Shown: positions 4,962-11,143 of the stretch, in pieces
How the letters are laid out: each line of letters opens with the position of its first letter
Numbering within the stretch: the stretch's first letter is position 1
DNA from: a virus
DNA length: 21,124 nt
Strand: one strand, 5' to 3'
IMG/VR virus record: IMGVR_UViG_3300025646_000459
Coordinates: 1-21,124 of that record
Position numbers and translations under genes: made by a program
The notes under the pieces: model-generated
What the model was told of the DNA's origin: nothing
Database searches by the model: none
The model's input: only the letters and a program-made list of their open reading frames with translations

Positions 4962-5545
4962 ATGGGTTTGAAGTTTATAAACTTTACCTTGCAATAAAAT
5001 TACACTTTACTTCAGATAGCTATAACTATTTTACCTTTAACGGAAAAACAAGAACTACTCTTCAATCTTTTGAAAAACGAAGAGACAAATATTTTTTTAA
5101 AAAGTTAGCTACAAAATTCAATCAAGATGAATTAATTCAGTATTTTGTAGCGCACTTTGTTCAAAATGGAGATACTTGGATTGGAGATATTTCTAAAATA
5201 GAAAATTCTTCAGTCTATAATAATTGGATAAAGAAAATTCAAAGTATGAGTTTTGTGTTCTCAAATGATTTAGATGTATTATTAACTGATAATTCATTTG
5301 AAGATTTATTTAAAGTCATAAATACTCATCCTCCAATTATAAAGCAGTATCTATCAAGTCGTATAAGTTTAGAAACGCTGGTTATTCTTAACCAACTGTT
5401 AAACTTTATCAAGGACTTTGATAAATCAATTAATGATCCAATAGTTTGGCCAGACATTAAAAAGAAGGTGTTGAAATACGAACCTTTTCTTTCTTTGGAC
5501 AAACCTAAATATAAGCAGATAGTTTTGTCGAAGGTTTCTAGCTGA
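4958..5545 (+). CDS. 59: Replicative helicase loader gp59
   Basis: gp59 loads the gp41 helicase onto forked, gp32-coated DNA. The 195-residue protein begins MNGFEVYKLYLAIKLHFTSD and continues YNYFTFNGKTRTTLQSFEKR, the hallmark N-terminus of the family. FFKKLATKF and ELIQYFVAHFVQNGDTWIGD follow. The C-terminal half is all-helical with many Lys and hydrophobic residues (about 110-190), which fits the two-domain helical fold. T4 gp59 is 217 residues, so this is slightly shorter. The start overlaps the gp33 stop (ATGA). The end forms a TGATG overlap with DUF1825, an insertion between 59 and 32 relative to T4. The assignment is firm from N-terminal motif and synteny together. Confidence 0.9.
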   Translation: MNGFEVYKLYLAIKLHFTSDSYNYFTFNGKTRTTLQSFEKRRDKYFFKKLATKFNQDELIQYFVAHFVQNGDTWIGDISKIENSSVYNNWIKKIQSMSFVFSNDLDVLLTDNSFEDLFKVINTHPPIIKQYLSSRISLETLVILNQLLNFIKDFDKSINDPIVWPDIKKKVLKYEPFLSLDKPKYKQIVLSKVSS

Positions 5546-6864: not shown

Positions 6865-6891
6865 AAAGGAGGCATAAAGCCTCCTTTTTTT
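6865..6891. terminator. Rho-independent terminator after gp32 (likely bidirectional)
   Basis: A perfect 9-bp stem pairs AAAGGAGGC (6865-6873) with GCCTCCTTT (6879-6887) around an ATAAA loop, followed by Ts to 6891. It begins 7 bases after the gp32 stop. The run of T is best for the + strand. On the - strand the hairpin is followed by TTTAATATTA, a weaker tail. The gp53 stop codon (6890-6892, - strand) abuts it, so the same hairpin probably ends both convergent units. Confidence 0.9.
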
Positions 6892-7543
6892 ATAGCTCGG
6901 TTTCTGAGAATCTAATTCCGTTGGAATCAATTTTGTACTCTGTATCATATGCAAATAGAGTAGCAATCTCTTCTTCCATGGTGGTTAAAAATTGTGGCTG
7001 AATTAAAAATATTTCTTTTTTGTTTTCGTTCTCTCTGTATTCAAATTCTCTATTAGTAATTGGGGTCATTACTTGAGATCCAGATAGTAATGATCCATTT
7101 GTTTTAGTGAATGTATATGATGGATAATAACCAGCTGCTTGCTGGTCTGCTCTTCCTTCATTGTATTCAATAATTACACCACCATTTAAAACGATATTGG
7201 AACCTTCGTATATTTCTTTTGTTTCCCAAAATTTAATATTATCTTGAGTATCTCCATATTTCTTTTCTATTGCTAGATCTAATTCGTAATCTGATACAGG
7301 CCAGTCATTATTGATGTCAATAATATTATTAAGGATTAATATTGTCCAATACCAATCAGGAGATCCATATTGTTTATTTGATACTTGTTCTGGAGTTTCA
7401 CCTTGTTGAATGGTATATCTTGTGGATGCAAGATATAATGCATTTAGATTGTCTCTAAATCTAACTCTACGAAATAAATTTTTAGATAATTTTATTCCAC
7501 CTTTATATGGATAATAAAAGTCTGGCTGAGAATTAAAAAACAT
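6890..7543 (-). CDS. 53: Baseplate wedge protein gp53
   Basis: In T4, gp53 joins neighbouring baseplate wedges and gp6 at the rim of the hub. The 217-residue protein starts MFFNSQPDFYYPYKGG. It has FRRVRFRDNLNAL, then TRYTIQQGETPEQVSNKQYG, a LysM-like segment also seen in T4 gp53, and DWYWTILILNNIIDINNDWP, a strong family signature. T4 gp53 is 196 residues. A GGAG ribosome site lies at 7550-7553 on the - strand, six bases before the start, and the gene follows gp48 by 12 bases. It converges on gp32. In T4 gene 53 is near gene 4, as here, but this one is inverted relative to gp4. Confidence 0.88.
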   Translation of the reverse strand: MFFNSQPDFYYPYKGGIKLSKNLFRRVRFRDNLNALYLASTRYTIQQGETPEQVSNKQYGSPDWYWTILILNNIIDINNDWPVSDYELDLAIEKKYGDTQDNIKFWETKEIYEGSNIVLNGGVIIEYNEGRADQQAAGYYPSYTFTKTNGSLLSGSQVMTPITNREFEYRENENKKEIFLIQPQFLTTMEEEIATLFAYDTEYKIDSNGIRFSETEL

Positions 7544-7555
7544 TATTCGACTCCA

Positions 7556-8533
7556 TTACTTTCCTTTAACGACATCGTTTGCGGTAATAATTTCAGTTTC
7601 TGCAAATGCCATTGTGACTTCATATGCAACTGGGGCAGGACCACTCAATCCAGCTCCTGCAGTATTAATATGGGTTGCCCAAACATTATCTGGAGTATAA
7701 TTAACTTGAATATTTTTTAGCACACAAGGTTTGATTTGTGGAAGTGATTGAATTGATGTTTGAGTTCCAGCCTGTTTCCATTTTAAATCAAAGATGTTTG
7801 GAACAGTTAACCATCTGTCTTCTAATTTGGATATTACATTGTATATTGCAGGAGGTTGTGCTCCTTGATTTTGAATTGGTCCACTACCACTATAATTAGG
7901 CAGTGAATAGTATCTAAGAGTTTTGATAATGTTATGAATTCTGACCTGTTCAGATGCATTTCTAGGAACTAATTTCCAAGAAAAATTAAACTCTCTCATC
8001 GCAATTCCTTTGAAAATCTGTTCGACATACGGATTTAATATTTTCCCTCCAATGCCACTGGTCAATGCTTCCGCTGGTGGTGCTCCTGGAATATTTTTGA
8101 TTGCGTTTAAAATAAATTCTGCAGTTCCAGCACCCGCCATTGTACTAATCATATTACCGATTTGACCTGGATCGTTTACTGCTGCTCCTGCTAGGCCAGG
8201 TAACATTTTACCTAACATCCCTATATTTTCAGAAGACCAAGATAGTTGATCGTTATAGTTAATATCATTTGGAACTGGCAATAGCACAGTTGCCATGGTT
8301 TTACGTCTACTCGGAGTTGTTGCTCGTTTATTATTAATTACTTCATATACATCTGCACTTTGAACATCAGTAACAAAAGGATTTGCTTGCGTCCCTAAAT
8401 TAGTATTAGCAATCGGAACATACTCCATAATATCAATTTGGAGCATATCTAACATTTCTCTTTTATCAGGCCAATATAAATCCTTATCAAAAGATTGTTG
8501 GGTATATCCTTTATTTACTGTTGTAAGGGCCAT
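7556..8533 (-). CDS. 48: Baseplate tail-tube cap protein gp48
   Basis: In T4, gp48 sits on the baseplate hub and, with gp54, starts tail-tube polymerisation. The 325-residue product (T4: about 364) has an N-terminal MLQIDIMEYVPI segment, a Gly/Ala/Met-rich helical middle (residues about 108-150), and a motif run NPYVEQIFKGIAMREFNFSW then KLVPRNASEQVRIHNIIKTL. It finishes with the beta-rich YTPDNVWATH and YEVTMAFAETEII segments. The last two parts match the tube-fold strands and are what I recognise as the cyanophage gp48 signature. It is first in a leftward two-gene unit with gp53. The start codon overlaps the late promoter for the opposite gene. A tube-initiator (gp54) identity is less likely but not excluded. 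Confidence 0.78.
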   Translation of the reverse strand: MALTTVNKGYTQQSFDKDLYWPDKREMLDMLQIDIMEYVPIANTNLGTQANPFVTDVQSADVYEVINNKRATTPSRRKTMATVLLPVPNDINYNDQLSWSSENIGMLGKMLPGLAGAAVNDPGQIGNMISTMAGAGTAEFILNAIKNIPGAPPAEALTSGIGGKILNPYVEQIFKGIAMREFNFSWKLVPRNASEQVRIHNIIKTLRYYSLPNYSGSGPIQNQGAQPPAIYNVISKLEDRWLTVPNIFDLKWKQAGTQTSIQSLPQIKPCVLKNIQVNYTPDNVWATHINTAGAGLSGPAPVAYEVTMAFAETEIITANDVVKGK

Positions 8534-8538
8534 AAATA
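8531..8538 (+). promoter_or_regulatory. T4-type late promoter for the gp4 structural operon
   Basis: CATAAATA on the + strand matches the NATAAATA late -10 element used by gp55-type sigma in T4-like cyanophages (T4: TATAAATA). Transcription would start near 8544, about 26 bases before the gp4 ATG. It overlaps the gp48 start codon on the other strand. No sigma70 -35 is needed or seen. Confidence 0.7.
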
Positions 8539-8564
8539 TTTTATGATATGCCTTTTATAATAAG

Positions 8565-8572
8565 TATTTATG
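8565..8572 (-). promoter_or_regulatory. T4-type late promoter for gp48-gp53
   Basis: TATTTATG on the + strand reads CATAAATA on the - strand, a late -10 element. It would start RNA near 8559, about 26 bases before the gp48 ATG. It overlaps the gp4 start codon. Together with the + strand element it forms a mirror-image divergent late promoter. Confidence 0.7.
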
Positions 8573-9007
8573 AATACTCTAAAGGGAAAATTTACCCCAA
8601 AGAATATTCAAAAGTATAGAGGGGACCCTAGAAATATAATTTATAGATCTTCATGGGAATTGAAGTTCATGAAGTATTGTGATACTAGATCTAATGTATT
8701 AGAATGGGCATCTGAAGAATGTGTTATCCCATATAGGTCGCCATTGGACAATAGAATTCATAGATACTTTGTTGATTTCTATGCCAAAATTCAAGAAGCT
8801 GATGGTACTATCACTAAGTATTTGATTGAAATAAAACCTAGTAAACAAACAGTCCCACCAAAAAAACCTCAACGACAAACTAAAAGTTATATCTATGAAG
8901 TAACTGAATACGTTAAGAACCAAGCTAAGTGGAAAGCTGCCAAAGAATTCTGTGATGATAGAATGTGGAAATTTAAAATCCTCACAGAATCGGAGTTAAA
9001 GGTATGA
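8570..9007 (+). CDS. 4: Head-completion nuclease-like protein gp4
   Basis: gp4 is needed to finish DNA-filled T4 heads before tail joining and belongs to the TnsA-like endonuclease fold. The 145-residue protein (T4: about 150) has the family opening GKFTPKNIQKYRGDPRNIIYRSSWELKFMKY. Trp and Glu in VLEWASEECVIPYRSP and Asp in HRYFVDFYAKI follow, and then EIKPSKQT. The sequence D...(E)xK, here VDFY then LIEIKPSK, is the PD-(D/E)XK metal site. The C-terminal NQAKWKAAKEFCDDRMWKFKI also fits. It is the first gene of the rightward late operon and lacks a clear Shine-Dalgarno. Its ATG overlaps the opposing late promoter. The stop overlaps the next gene (ATGA). Confidence 0.9.
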   Translation: MNTLKGKFTPKNIQKYRGDPRNIIYRSSWELKFMKYCDTRSNVLEWASEECVIPYRSPLDNRIHRYFVDFYAKIQEADGTITKYLIEIKPSKQTVPPKKPQRQTKSYIYEVTEYVKNQAKWKAAKEFCDDRMWKFKILTESELKV

Positions 9008-9567
9008 GAAGAGAAGTATCAGCCAGAACAAAAAATACTTCACAGCTTAATATATTTGAGCAGGTAGATGAAATCGCAAATAAAAAAAGAAAAGGATTTC
9101 ATACTCTATCATATAGTTGGTACAAAGATACGGTTGCTGAAGTTGCTAGGAAGAATGATATTTACAAAACGTTAGTCACTCTTGATGAAACACTTATCCC
9201 ATCTGGAGGCAATTTATATTTGTTTGAATATAATGCAACTTGGGCAAAAAAACTTCCATACTATGATGAGTTTCCTTTAGTGTATATGCTACAAGGAGGA
9301 AGGAAATTCTTTGGGGCTAATCTTCACTATTTAAATTATCCAACACGCTATAAAGTTTTGCAGAGTATTATAGATGGACGACCAACAATTCCTAAACAGT
9401 GCTTTCATAATTATGTTTATGAAGGTCTTGATACACCACTATTTAAAATAAATAGTGAAGACTGGATGAAATCTATTTTTCTACCGTTGGAAAGTTTTGT
9501 GAGTAGACAAGCAGGTTCATATAAACAAGTTAGTAAATCCTTTGTCTGGGGAGACAGCCGTAAATGA
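9004..9567 (+). CDS. Conserved T4-like phage protein of unknown function
   Basis: The 187-residue protein begins with a basic segment and a long helix (SQLNIFEQVDEIANKKRKGF), then HTLSYSWYKDTVAEVARKND. The most distinctive part is FEYNATWAKKLPYYDEFPLVYML, followed about 15 residues later by GANLHYLNYPTRYKVLQSII. The pattern YDxxPLVxxL...GxNxHYLxxxxRxxLL recurs in phages of several types, to my memory, without an assigned role. It overlaps gp4 (ATGA) and the next tail gene, so it is a late gene. Its position between head-completion and tail-tube genes suggests a head-tail or DNA-end function, but nothing in the sequence proves that. I see no similarity sufficient to call it the DNA-end protector gp2. 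Confidence 0.75.
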   Translation: MRREVSARTKNTSQLNIFEQVDEIANKKRKGFHTLSYSWYKDTVAEVARKNDIYKTLVTLDETLIPSGGNLYLFEYNATWAKKLPYYDEFPLVYMLQGGRKFFGANLHYLNYPTRYKVLQSIIDGRPTIPKQCFHNYVYEGLDTPLFKINSEDWMKSIFLPLESFVSRQAGSYKQVSKSFVWGDSRK

Positions 9568-10397
9568 GTATCAATACTACTCCTACCAACTTTAGCGAAT
9601 TTAAAAGTTATGTGCAAAAGCATGGCTTTTCACTAAGTAATTTTTATGATGTTCAGTTTCAGTTGAGTAATGAATCTAAAAATTCTCAATTATTAAAAAA
9701 TATATTTAATCTTGGAATTACTGGTAGTTCTAATGCGACTGATGTATCATTTATGGATGGACTACTTAGGTTATATGCAGATGAATGTTCTATCCCTGGG
9801 TATTCAATTTCTACAGGAGATTATAGATTAAACAATAGCCCAACGCTAAAATATGCTTATGGTATTGTAAATAATGAAATTACAATATCATTTATTTTAG
9901 ATGCAGACGCAGAAGTGAGAAGGCTTTTTGATGCTTGGGGAAATTACATTTATGGTAGTGTTTCATTGTCAGGTGGAAACGTATCTAATACTAATTTAAA
10001 TTTTAATACTAAAACAGATCTTGGAAGAACTAGATATCGTGATGATTACGTAGCAGATATTATTGTCGCTAAACTAGAGAGACACAGAAGCAGTAGAAAA
10101 AATACAAGAACTAGACTTACTAATATTGATTCTCAACGCAATTATTATTCTAATAAAGAAATTATTCCAGACTATAATGGTCCTCTTTTACCTGGGTTTG
10201 GCAAACCATTTTATACCTATTCTGTTAGATTGAGAAATTGTTTTCCTACAACAATCTCTTCCATTCCTTTGTCTAGTGGATCATCTCAATTAGTTAGAGT
10301 TCAGGTAACATTTGAATATGAACTTGCAGTTCCTTCATCTCAAACTGCAGCGGGCAGTGTATCTGAGGCATCGAATTGGGGAGAGATCGTTAACTAA
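9564..10397 (+). CDS. 54: Tail-tube-fold protein, likely baseplate tail-tube initiator gp54
   Basis: The 277-residue protein has the order expected of the gp19/gp54 tube family: an N-terminal FSLSNFYDVQFQL strand, a central ADECSIPGYSISTGDYRLNN loop, then EITISFILDADAEVRRLFDAW, and C-terminal RNCFPTTISSIPLSSGS with VRVQVTFEYEL. The CxIPG motif and the final beta hairpin ending in an F-x-Y-E/A strand are typical of tube proteins. Because it lies beside hub genes rather than next to a tail sheath, I favour gp54 (T4: 320 residues) over the main tube protein gp19. It may also be a gp48 relative. An ATGA overlap couples it to the previous gene; a 35-base gap follows it. Confidence 0.6.
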   Translation: MSINTTPTNFSEFKSYVQKHGFSLSNFYDVQFQLSNESKNSQLLKNIFNLGITGSSNATDVSFMDGLLRLYADECSIPGYSISTGDYRLNNSPTLKYAYGIVNNEITISFILDADAEVRRLFDAWGNYIYGSVSLSGGNVSNTNLNFNTKTDLGRTRYRDDYVADIIVAKLERHRSSRKNTRTRLTNIDSQRNYYSNKEIIPDYNGPLLPGFGKPFYTYSVRLRNCFPTTISSIPLSSGSSQLVRVQVTFEYELAVPSSQTAAGSVSEASNWGEIVN

Positions 10398-10432
10398 CCT
10401 AAATAAATTGAGATTATGTTATAGTATTTACT

Positions 10433-11143
10433 ATGCCTTTACCAAAAATTGTAACACCGACGTATGAATTGCGTTTACCATCAACAGATCAATTAGTTAA
10501 ATACAGACCATTCCTAGTAAAAGAAGAGAAAGTTCTTCTCATGGCTATGGAATCTGAAGATGAATCTCAGATGATTAATGCAGTGAAAACAATTCTAAAA
10601 AATTGCATTATTTCTAAAGTTAAAGTTGATGACTTAGCTGTATTTGATATAGAATATCTATTCCTCAATATTCGTGCAAAGTCTGTTGGTGAACAGATTG
10701 ACTTAAACATTACATGTCCAGATGATGGAGAAACTGTAGTTCCTATTGAACTCAATGTTGAAGATATTCAGATTCAAAAGTCTGAAGATCATTCTAGAAT
10801 TATTCCATTGAATGATACAATTTCTGTTGTAATGAAATATCCTAGTATGGAAATGTTTGTTAAAACAAACTTTACTGCTAATGCAAAAACTGAAGATGTA
10901 TTTGAAATTGCTGCCTCTTGTATTGAGCAGGTTGTAGAAGGTGAAGATGTATATGAAACTAAGAGTTTTAGCAAAAAAGAAATTAATGAGTTTCTAGATA
11001 GTTTGGATACAGCTCAATTTTTGTCAATTCAAAAATTCTTTGAGAGTATGCCAAAATTATCCCATACAGTTAAAGTTACTAATCCAGTAACTAATGTTGA
11101 AAGTGATGTTGTATTGGAGGGTCTTGCGTCTTTTTTCGCATAG
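10433..11143 (+). CDS. 26: Baseplate hub assembly protein gp26 (upstream half of a probable frameshift pair)
   Basis: The 236-residue protein begins MPLPKIVTPTYELRLPSTDQ, with LVKYRPFLVKEEKVLLMAME and the helical AVKTILKNCIISKVKVDDLA, FDIEYLFLNIRAKSVGE, and a CPDD turn. This is the T4 gp26 family (T4: 208), required for hub assembly. The C-terminal half is again helical (SFSKKEINEFLDSLDTAQFL). The gene ends in-frame at TAG 11141-11143, immediately after a run of six T. A TTTTTTC heptamer, an internal GGAGGG and a downstream stem-loop suggest that some ribosomes shift by -1 here and continue for 62 residues into a gp51-like segment. Short and long forms would be 236 and about 297 residues. Confidence 0.82.
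   Translation: MPLPKIVTPTYELRLPSTDQLVKYRPFLVKEEKVLLMAMESEDESQMINAVKTILKNCIISKVKVDDLAVFDIEYLFLNIRAKSVGEQIDLNITCPDDGETVVPIELNVEDIQIQKSEDHSRIIPLNDTISVVMKYPSMEMFVKTNFTANAKTEDVFEIAASCIEQVVEGEDVYETKSFSKKEINEFLDSLDTAQFLSIQKFFESMPKLSHTVKVTNPVTNVESDVVLEGLASFFA

Follow-up and report, generated by a model that had tools for sequence, protein, structure and literature searches.

How can two operons of virion genes be transcribed in opposite directions out of 42 bp, when the apparent promoter of each lies upon the start codon of the other? This is the question raised by the region between gp48 and gp4 in the viral record IMGVR_UViG_3300025646_000459. The window, by which we mean the whole 21,124-nt stretch analysed, is the complete record and is probably a fragment. 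Its genes resemble those of T4-like cyanophages by their PHROG matches; megablast of positions 7500-9500 against phage records gave no match. The genes around the junction are as follows.

6890 to 7543, - strand: gp53, baseplate wedge subunit (PHROG 232, E 3.5e-47)
7556 to 8533, - strand: gp48, baseplate tail tube cap (PHROG 230, E 1.3e-66)
8570 to 9007, + strand: gp4, head closure/completion protein (PHROG 218, E 6.6e-61)
9004 to 9567, + strand: gp2, DNA end protector (PHROG 429, E 2.3e-33)
9564 to 10397, + strand: tail-tube family protein, at the place of gp54 in Aeromonas phage AsFcp_2 (PHROG 45, E 8.8e-34; gene order)
10433 to 11143, + strand: baseplate hub subunit, gp26 by gene order (PHROG 150, E 7.9e-81)

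The gap between gp48 and gp4 is 36 bases, or 42 bp when both start codons are counted, with the complement of the gp48 ATG at 8531-8533 and the gp4 ATG at 8570-8572. An earlier note had reported that mirror-image late promoters span these 42 bp and that each overlaps the start codon of the other gene. The sequence bears this out: two separate copies of the same octamer face each other across 26 bp, and each holds the complement of the opposite gene's ATG. The elements of the control region are listed below, with the leaders predicted from the T4 rule that the late octamer occupies positions -13 to -6 (PMC1524935).

8531 to 8538, + strand: CATAAATA, -13 to -6 element of a very probable late promoter serving gp4 and the rightward operon; it begins with the complement of the gp48 ATG (three bases)
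8565 to 8572, - strand: CATAAATA, very probable late promoter serving gp48-gp53; it begins with the complement of the gp4 ATG (three bases)
8544 to 8569, + strand: 26-nt 5' leader predicted for the gp4 RNA
8534 to 8559, - strand: 26-nt 5' leader predicted for the gp48 RNA
8544 to 8559: 16 nt common to both predicted leaders and mutually antisense, from the geometry

The same rule returns the starts proposed earlier, 8544 on the + strand and 8559 on the - strand. The conclusion then drawn, that the two leaders do not overlap, is mistaken. Since transcription from the left promoter heads rightward and that from the right promoter leftward, the predicted leaders share the 16 nt from 8544 to 8559.

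Considered alone, the window is just suggestive. It has a single exact pair CATAAATA..TATTTATG within 60 bp, whereas 300 dinucleotide shuffles of the window gave a mean of 0.007 (2/300 with one). A looser pair of N[AC]TAAATA motifs, however, appeared at least once somewhere in the 21 kb in 45/300 shuffles, so the exact place of the pair and its conservation must decide. N[AC]TAAATA is found eight times on the + strand of the window and on the - strand only at the gp48/gp4 junction.

The identity of the octamers is best judged alongside known late promoters. CATAAATA differs from the T4 octamer TATAAATA by one mismatch at the first base (T in T4, C in the window), a position reported to be poorly conserved in most T4-like phages (PMC1524935). 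Many relatives of the window carry CTAAATA, the form described for Aeromonas phage Aeh1 in the same source. NATAAATA has been published as the late motif of S-PM2 and Syn9 (PMC2984593); it is of the same motif class and likewise stands upstream of late genes. As in T4-type late promoters, then, each octamer is close to TATAAATA and lies at a normal leader distance from virion genes that run in the same direction. The preference for the sense strand was seen in relatives, the window being a fragment.

Syn9 illustrates this preference most clearly. NATAAATA occurs 37 times on its + strand and once on its - strand, and the lone - copy is at the gp4/gp48 junction, which lies at 5141-5179; CTAAATA occurs 23 times on + and twice on -. 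Base composition was rejected as the cause of this bias: in strand-bias shuffles (eight genomes, 12 shuffles each) ATAAATA in Syn9 is expected 23 times on + and 20 times on -, against the single antisense copy observed. Five further cyanophages had 33-61 late motifs on one strand and 2-7 on the other, with S-BM3 at 34 versus 3 on reversed strands; the minority-strand count expected from shuffles is 14-58. Minority-strand copies occur off the junction as well in cyanophages other than Syn9, and a minority-strand ATAAATA or CTAAATA sits at the junction in all of these cyanophages except P-TIM40. In T4, whose late genes are divided between the strands, the bias is not strong (38 versus 27 motifs).

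A motif so rich in A and T beside start codons could instead be a signal for the initiation of translation. On reading of the sequence neither gene has a clear Shine-Dalgarno, as the earlier note had also remarked. Among the exact pairs collected from relatives (described below), 147/155 have a core that reaches 2 nt into the gp4 start codon or stops directly at it. The gene starts of Syn9 led us to reject this reading, which is very improbable. A late motif in the direction of the gene was found at -60 to -13 in 28/225 gene starts, whereas an opposite-strand motif at the start codon was found in only 2/225 genes, gp4 and gp48. That these are exactly the two divergent genes fits a pair of promoters and speaks against a translation signal, and the orientation of each motif suits a promoter of the opposite gene. 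The distance from core to start in Syn9 is 31 for gp4 and 39 for gp48, as against a range of 22-60 and a median of 33 among 27 other motif-gene pairs, motifs being sought up to 60 nt from the gene; for gp4 in the window it is 38 nt. Leaders of normal length in an intergenic space of 36 bases necessarily bring the octamers close to the start codons. On this evidence, gp4 and gp48 very probably each have one of the two CATAAATA octamers as a T4-type late promoter.

Conservation was assessed across gene-4 junctions. Loci were gathered with the gp4 proteins of the window, T4, Syn9 and P-SSM2, and from named phage records; three viral-contig searches contributed the best 80 of at least 589 relatives. 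The 275 sources yielded 274 with a gp4 start, 272 with at least 60 nt upstream and 192 distinct junctions, reduced to 189 by leaving out three (L108, L109 and L119) in which no divergent partner was found. With the core defined as [AC]TAAATA, 155 of the 189 distinct junctions among the matches listed have two exact cores facing each other, and shuffled junctions contained an exact pair in 0-0.7%, depending on the group. The pair accompanies every type of partner: gp48 (55/80), a tail-tube gene (69/75 and 23/25 in two reference sets), gp53 (5/5) and the four junctions without an identified partner gene (3/4). The gp4-side core is exact in 183/189 and the partner-side core in 158/189. These 189 rows are strongly related, forming 32 clusters at 80% gp4 identity, of which 19 have at least one exact pair. 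Absence of the motif in close relatives had been named as grounds for giving up the idea of paired late promoters; among the matches listed, all five of the closest (L003-L006 and L050, gp4 88-91% identical) keep both octamers.

When the whole records of 21 phages were scanned for face-to-face core pairs spanning 28-48, 12 proved to have a pair at the gp4 junction; three pairs lay elsewhere (one in P-TIM40, two in T4), and the reversed control pattern turned up once in each of six records. The P-TIM40 pair lies inside a primase-like reading frame, named from its translation, and is probably due to chance. Exact spans appear bimodal, at 28-37 and 38-41 (21 for T4 and one other); as the rows are closely related and modal spans scatter across the 80%-identity clusters, we make no claim on helical phasing. 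Mutual overlap with both start codons is a true feature of the window but not a general one, occurring in 8/155 exact pairs. Both motifs overlap or abut (within 1 nt) start codons in 101/155, partner starts being assigned roughly.

We propose that the junction comprises two ordinary T4-type late promoters, whose -10-like octamers would be read by the sigma-like gp55 together with gp33 and the sliding clamp gp45, the factors on which the late promoters of T4 depend. The left promoter would drive gp4-gp2-tube-gp26 to the right and the right promoter gp48-gp53 to the left, the face-to-face spacing being just enough to give each gene a normal leader. T4-type late promoters have no conserved -35 element, which leaves each octamer free to sit on or against the start codon of the other gene. 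Polymerase with gp55 is reported to open the DNA from -12 to +2, and gp33 to contact just the upstream DNA backbone (PMC7892883); with little besides the octamer being read, the octamer may lie within a start codon. The geometry of the 42 bp implies that two open complexes could not coexist. Two polymerases would then be unable to open both promoters at once and initiation would be mutually exclusive. Such exclusion is most likely a by-product of compaction rather than a selected function, and the selected feature would be one late promoter each way at the divergent junction upstream of gene 4. We consider it likely that this account, two ordinary late promoters in a compact face-to-face layout with exclusion as its by-product, is the correct one.

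The earlier note went further and saw in exclusion or collision a built-in means of balancing transcription. On that proposal the overlap itself would be selected and would keep transcription of the tail-cap/wedge genes in proportion to that of the head/hub genes. Exclusion is indeed very likely on the geometry, given the unwinding just described. A polymerase leaving either site must also traverse the opposite promoter, and 152/155 exact pairs have predicted leaders that overlap by 4-17 nt. At an E. coli bidirectional promoter, strong activation of one side is reported to be capable of repressing the other, competition arising in that case only; the same account describes the basal activity of all five tested promoters as too low for it (PMC12825309). 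Phage late promoters may be strong enough to compete, so the two could interfere; compaction nevertheless explains the layout more simply. Beyond the geometry nothing speaks for a balancing function, and several observations speak against it. The distances from promoter to start are ordinary, as for single late promoters in Syn9, and in T4 a gap of 3 nt keeps the predicted starts from overlapping. Of the 23 junctions in L028, a cluster near the window, 19 have no exact pair. In phages related to AsFcp_2 the gp48/gp4 pair is retained with its promoters standing back to back, and the partner core is kept less strictly than the gp4 core. Back-to-back pairs between the same genes and a laxer partner arm together argue against a tuned balance, which we regard as quite unlikely.

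Another possibility is that the two arms act in RNA, pairing in early read-through transcripts to hide the start codon, whereas the late RNA, which begins within the hairpin, lacks the 5' arm and is translated. A switch of this kind is established for e, soc, 49, I-TevI and segB of T4 (PMC3014915, PMC2988022), and T4 has two other face-to-face pairs, at segB and I-TevI. At 37 C the + strand 42-mer by itself has a predicted folding energy of -8.2 kcal/mol. When the 155 exact pairs were folded at 25 C, mean arm pairing in read-through RNA was 0.69, and the gp4 start region was more than 0.2 more open in the late RNA for 74% of them. Any motif repeated in opposed orientation yields an inverted repeat, so that arm pairing is expected in any case; with the loops shuffled it was still 0.59, real exceeding shuffled in 98/155. 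The difference was larger for junctions with gp48 as partner (0.51 versus 0.30 with loops shuffled). Symmetry of the bases shows the same mixture. Inner positions 5 and 7 are symmetric in 100/155 and 67/155, above all 500 shuffles, but positions 3, 4 and 6 fall under expectation, the first base inward of the core (position 1) is near chance (54/155 versus 42.8 expected, maximum 57), and relatedness of the rows can itself produce an excess. In longer RNAs from the window the start codons are equally paired with or without the 5' arm. Early read-through from gp32 would moreover be limited by a terminator-like stem at 6865-6887. A selected RNA switch thus seems to us unlikely at this junction.

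That terminator-like stem-loop, with 9 pairs and a T run, lies between gp32 and the convergent gp53; four terminator-like stems were found in the stretch versus 2.2 expected. At 8564-8577 the window reads GTATTTATGAATAC, which is predicted to place the gp4 AUG at the loop of a small hairpin, in the late leader too.

Junctions that deviate from the exact pair define the range of the arrangement. One or both exact cores are missing in 34/189, the partner arm being inexact in 31/189. The L028 cluster, whose gp4 is about 70-75% identical to that of the window, contributes 19 of these, and 16 of the 19 have CATATATA on the gp48 side. In S-WAM1 and P-TIM40 (L094 and L098, ~2485-2495) the pair is absent and the start codons of gp48 and gp4 overlap in CCATGG. 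A later set of more distant phages, counted apart and with gp4 starts assigned more roughly, comprised 64 loci and 33 distinct junctions. Three of the 33 have the exact face-to-face pair, four a back-to-back pair, 17 the gp4-side core only, six the partner-side core only and three neither. The six with the partner-side core only are relatives of Shigella phage Ag3 (Ackermannviridae). The four back-to-back junctions (L351-L354) have gp4 60-100% identical to that of AsFcp_2 and share the gp48/gp4 gene pair with the window. Three of them and AsFcp_2 itself read TATTTAGCTAAATA.

TATTTAGCTAAATA is a 14-bp perfect palindrome made of two back-to-back late cores and stands 19-32 nt before gp4 (L351-L353; also L106).

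The genes beside the pair have changed while its place has not. It stays upstream of gene 4, and the partner is gp53, gp48 or a tail-tube gene. In order A, found in the window, Syn9, ACG-2014b and Syn33, gp53 and gp48 run leftward from the junction and gp4, (gp2), tube and gp26 rightward. In order B, found in P-SSM2, S-PM2, S-T4, S-CREM1, S-H38 and others, gp26 and tube run leftward and gp4, (gp2), gp48 and gp53 rightward. S-CAM7 and ACG-2014f also have a tube-like gene opposed to gp4, with gp48 on the other side. The two orders differ by an inversion of the promoter-gp4(-gp2) block. A combined tree of gp4, gp48, tube and gp53 was built from 45 of 156 usable rows (31 B, 14 A). It requires at least two changes of order, S-CREM1 and S-H38 falling inside the A group on starred branches, and a tree forcing all B rows together was rejected (AU p=0.0003, from a quick search and with one long branch, S-PM2). 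The gp4-only tree of all 189 rows has five changes among three partner types, the T4 type included. We infer from these trees that gene order at gene 4 changed at least twice within the cyanophages. Order A would be ancestral judging from the outgroups, as gp48 opposed to gp4 is common to AsFcp_2 and Ag3, and gp53 opposed to gp4 is found in T4 and Acinetobacter phage Stupor.

Compared directly with L097, L100 and the window, S-CREM1 (L089) and S-H38 (L092) have the promoter-gp4(-gp2) block inverted relative to gp48-gp53 and tube-gp26.

In a further reading, the pair would be an orientation-neutral landing pad and an evolutionary pivot. For activation gp45 must reportedly be loaded in the right polarity (PMC7892883). 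A clamp-tethered late polymerase would therefore track DNA with polarity, and an opposed pair would serve complexes arriving in either orientation, tying both operons to both replication strands. If so, repeated inversions of the gene 4-gene 2 module need not have cost its expression, and the junction would survive a change of partner. We offer this as a speculation and consider it unlikely.

Whether or not it is a pivot, the compact pair of ordinary late promoters has parallels elsewhere. The 53/4 junction of T4 likewise has late promoters both ways at a divergent junction adjoining gene 4. There the core pair spans 21 bp and is tighter, the octamers are clear of the start codons with a Shine-Dalgarno-like GGAG between them and, unlike those of the window, the predicted transcripts do not overlap. 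Both 53/4 promoters may well be listed singly, reportedly, in the T4 promoter tables of Miller et al. 2003. For S-PM2 and Syn9, opposed pairs do not figure in the motif description in the accessible parts of PMC2984593. The E. coli bidirectional promoters of Warman, Grainger and co-workers are similar in that a short pseudo-symmetrical DNA gives transcripts both ways with one polymerase at a time; there, a shared -10 contains the two starts or is flanked by them (PMC12825309), whereas the window has two separate facing elements and predicted transcripts that overlap. A symmetric bidirectional promoter with a shared -10 element was accordingly rejected for the window, its two octamers being 26 bp apart. 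We know of no regulator of the window pair such as acts at Pc/Pr of plasmid pLS20. Those promoters of divergent genes also overlap, but they are unequal and work through a regulator and DNA looping (PMC4207663).

T4-type late promoters are the known part of these findings and the compact opposed layout is the new part; in the open-licence literature we found no description of the face-to-face pair, of the gene-4 pattern or of its changes of side. The gene-4 pattern and its changes of side are more interesting than the pair itself. If the proposal is right, T4 late-promoter logic becomes a rule for many T4-like phages, with a late promoter each way before gene 4 in cyanophages and T4 despite the change in gene order. 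The junctions would then offer a natural series (back to back, nearly coincident, face to face) for measuring interference between near-identical late promoters, and a clear case of inversion of a gene module beside a symmetric control element.

Some further observations concern neighbouring features and annotation. A further divergent junction of T4, between inh and segE/uvsW at 112022-112041 (L349, 41023-41042), also has late cores face to face, with a span of 20. In the window the late-type motif CCTAAATA occurs at 10398-10405, at a normal distance before the hub gene (10433), and again at 5504-5511, at a normal distance before a reading frame at 5545. The annotated gp4 starts of S-BM3 (L091, ~2489-2588) and Bellamy (L099, ~2495-2624) lie well downstream of the homologous start by the promoter pair and are possibly mis-annotated; the homologous start in S-BM3 is TTG.
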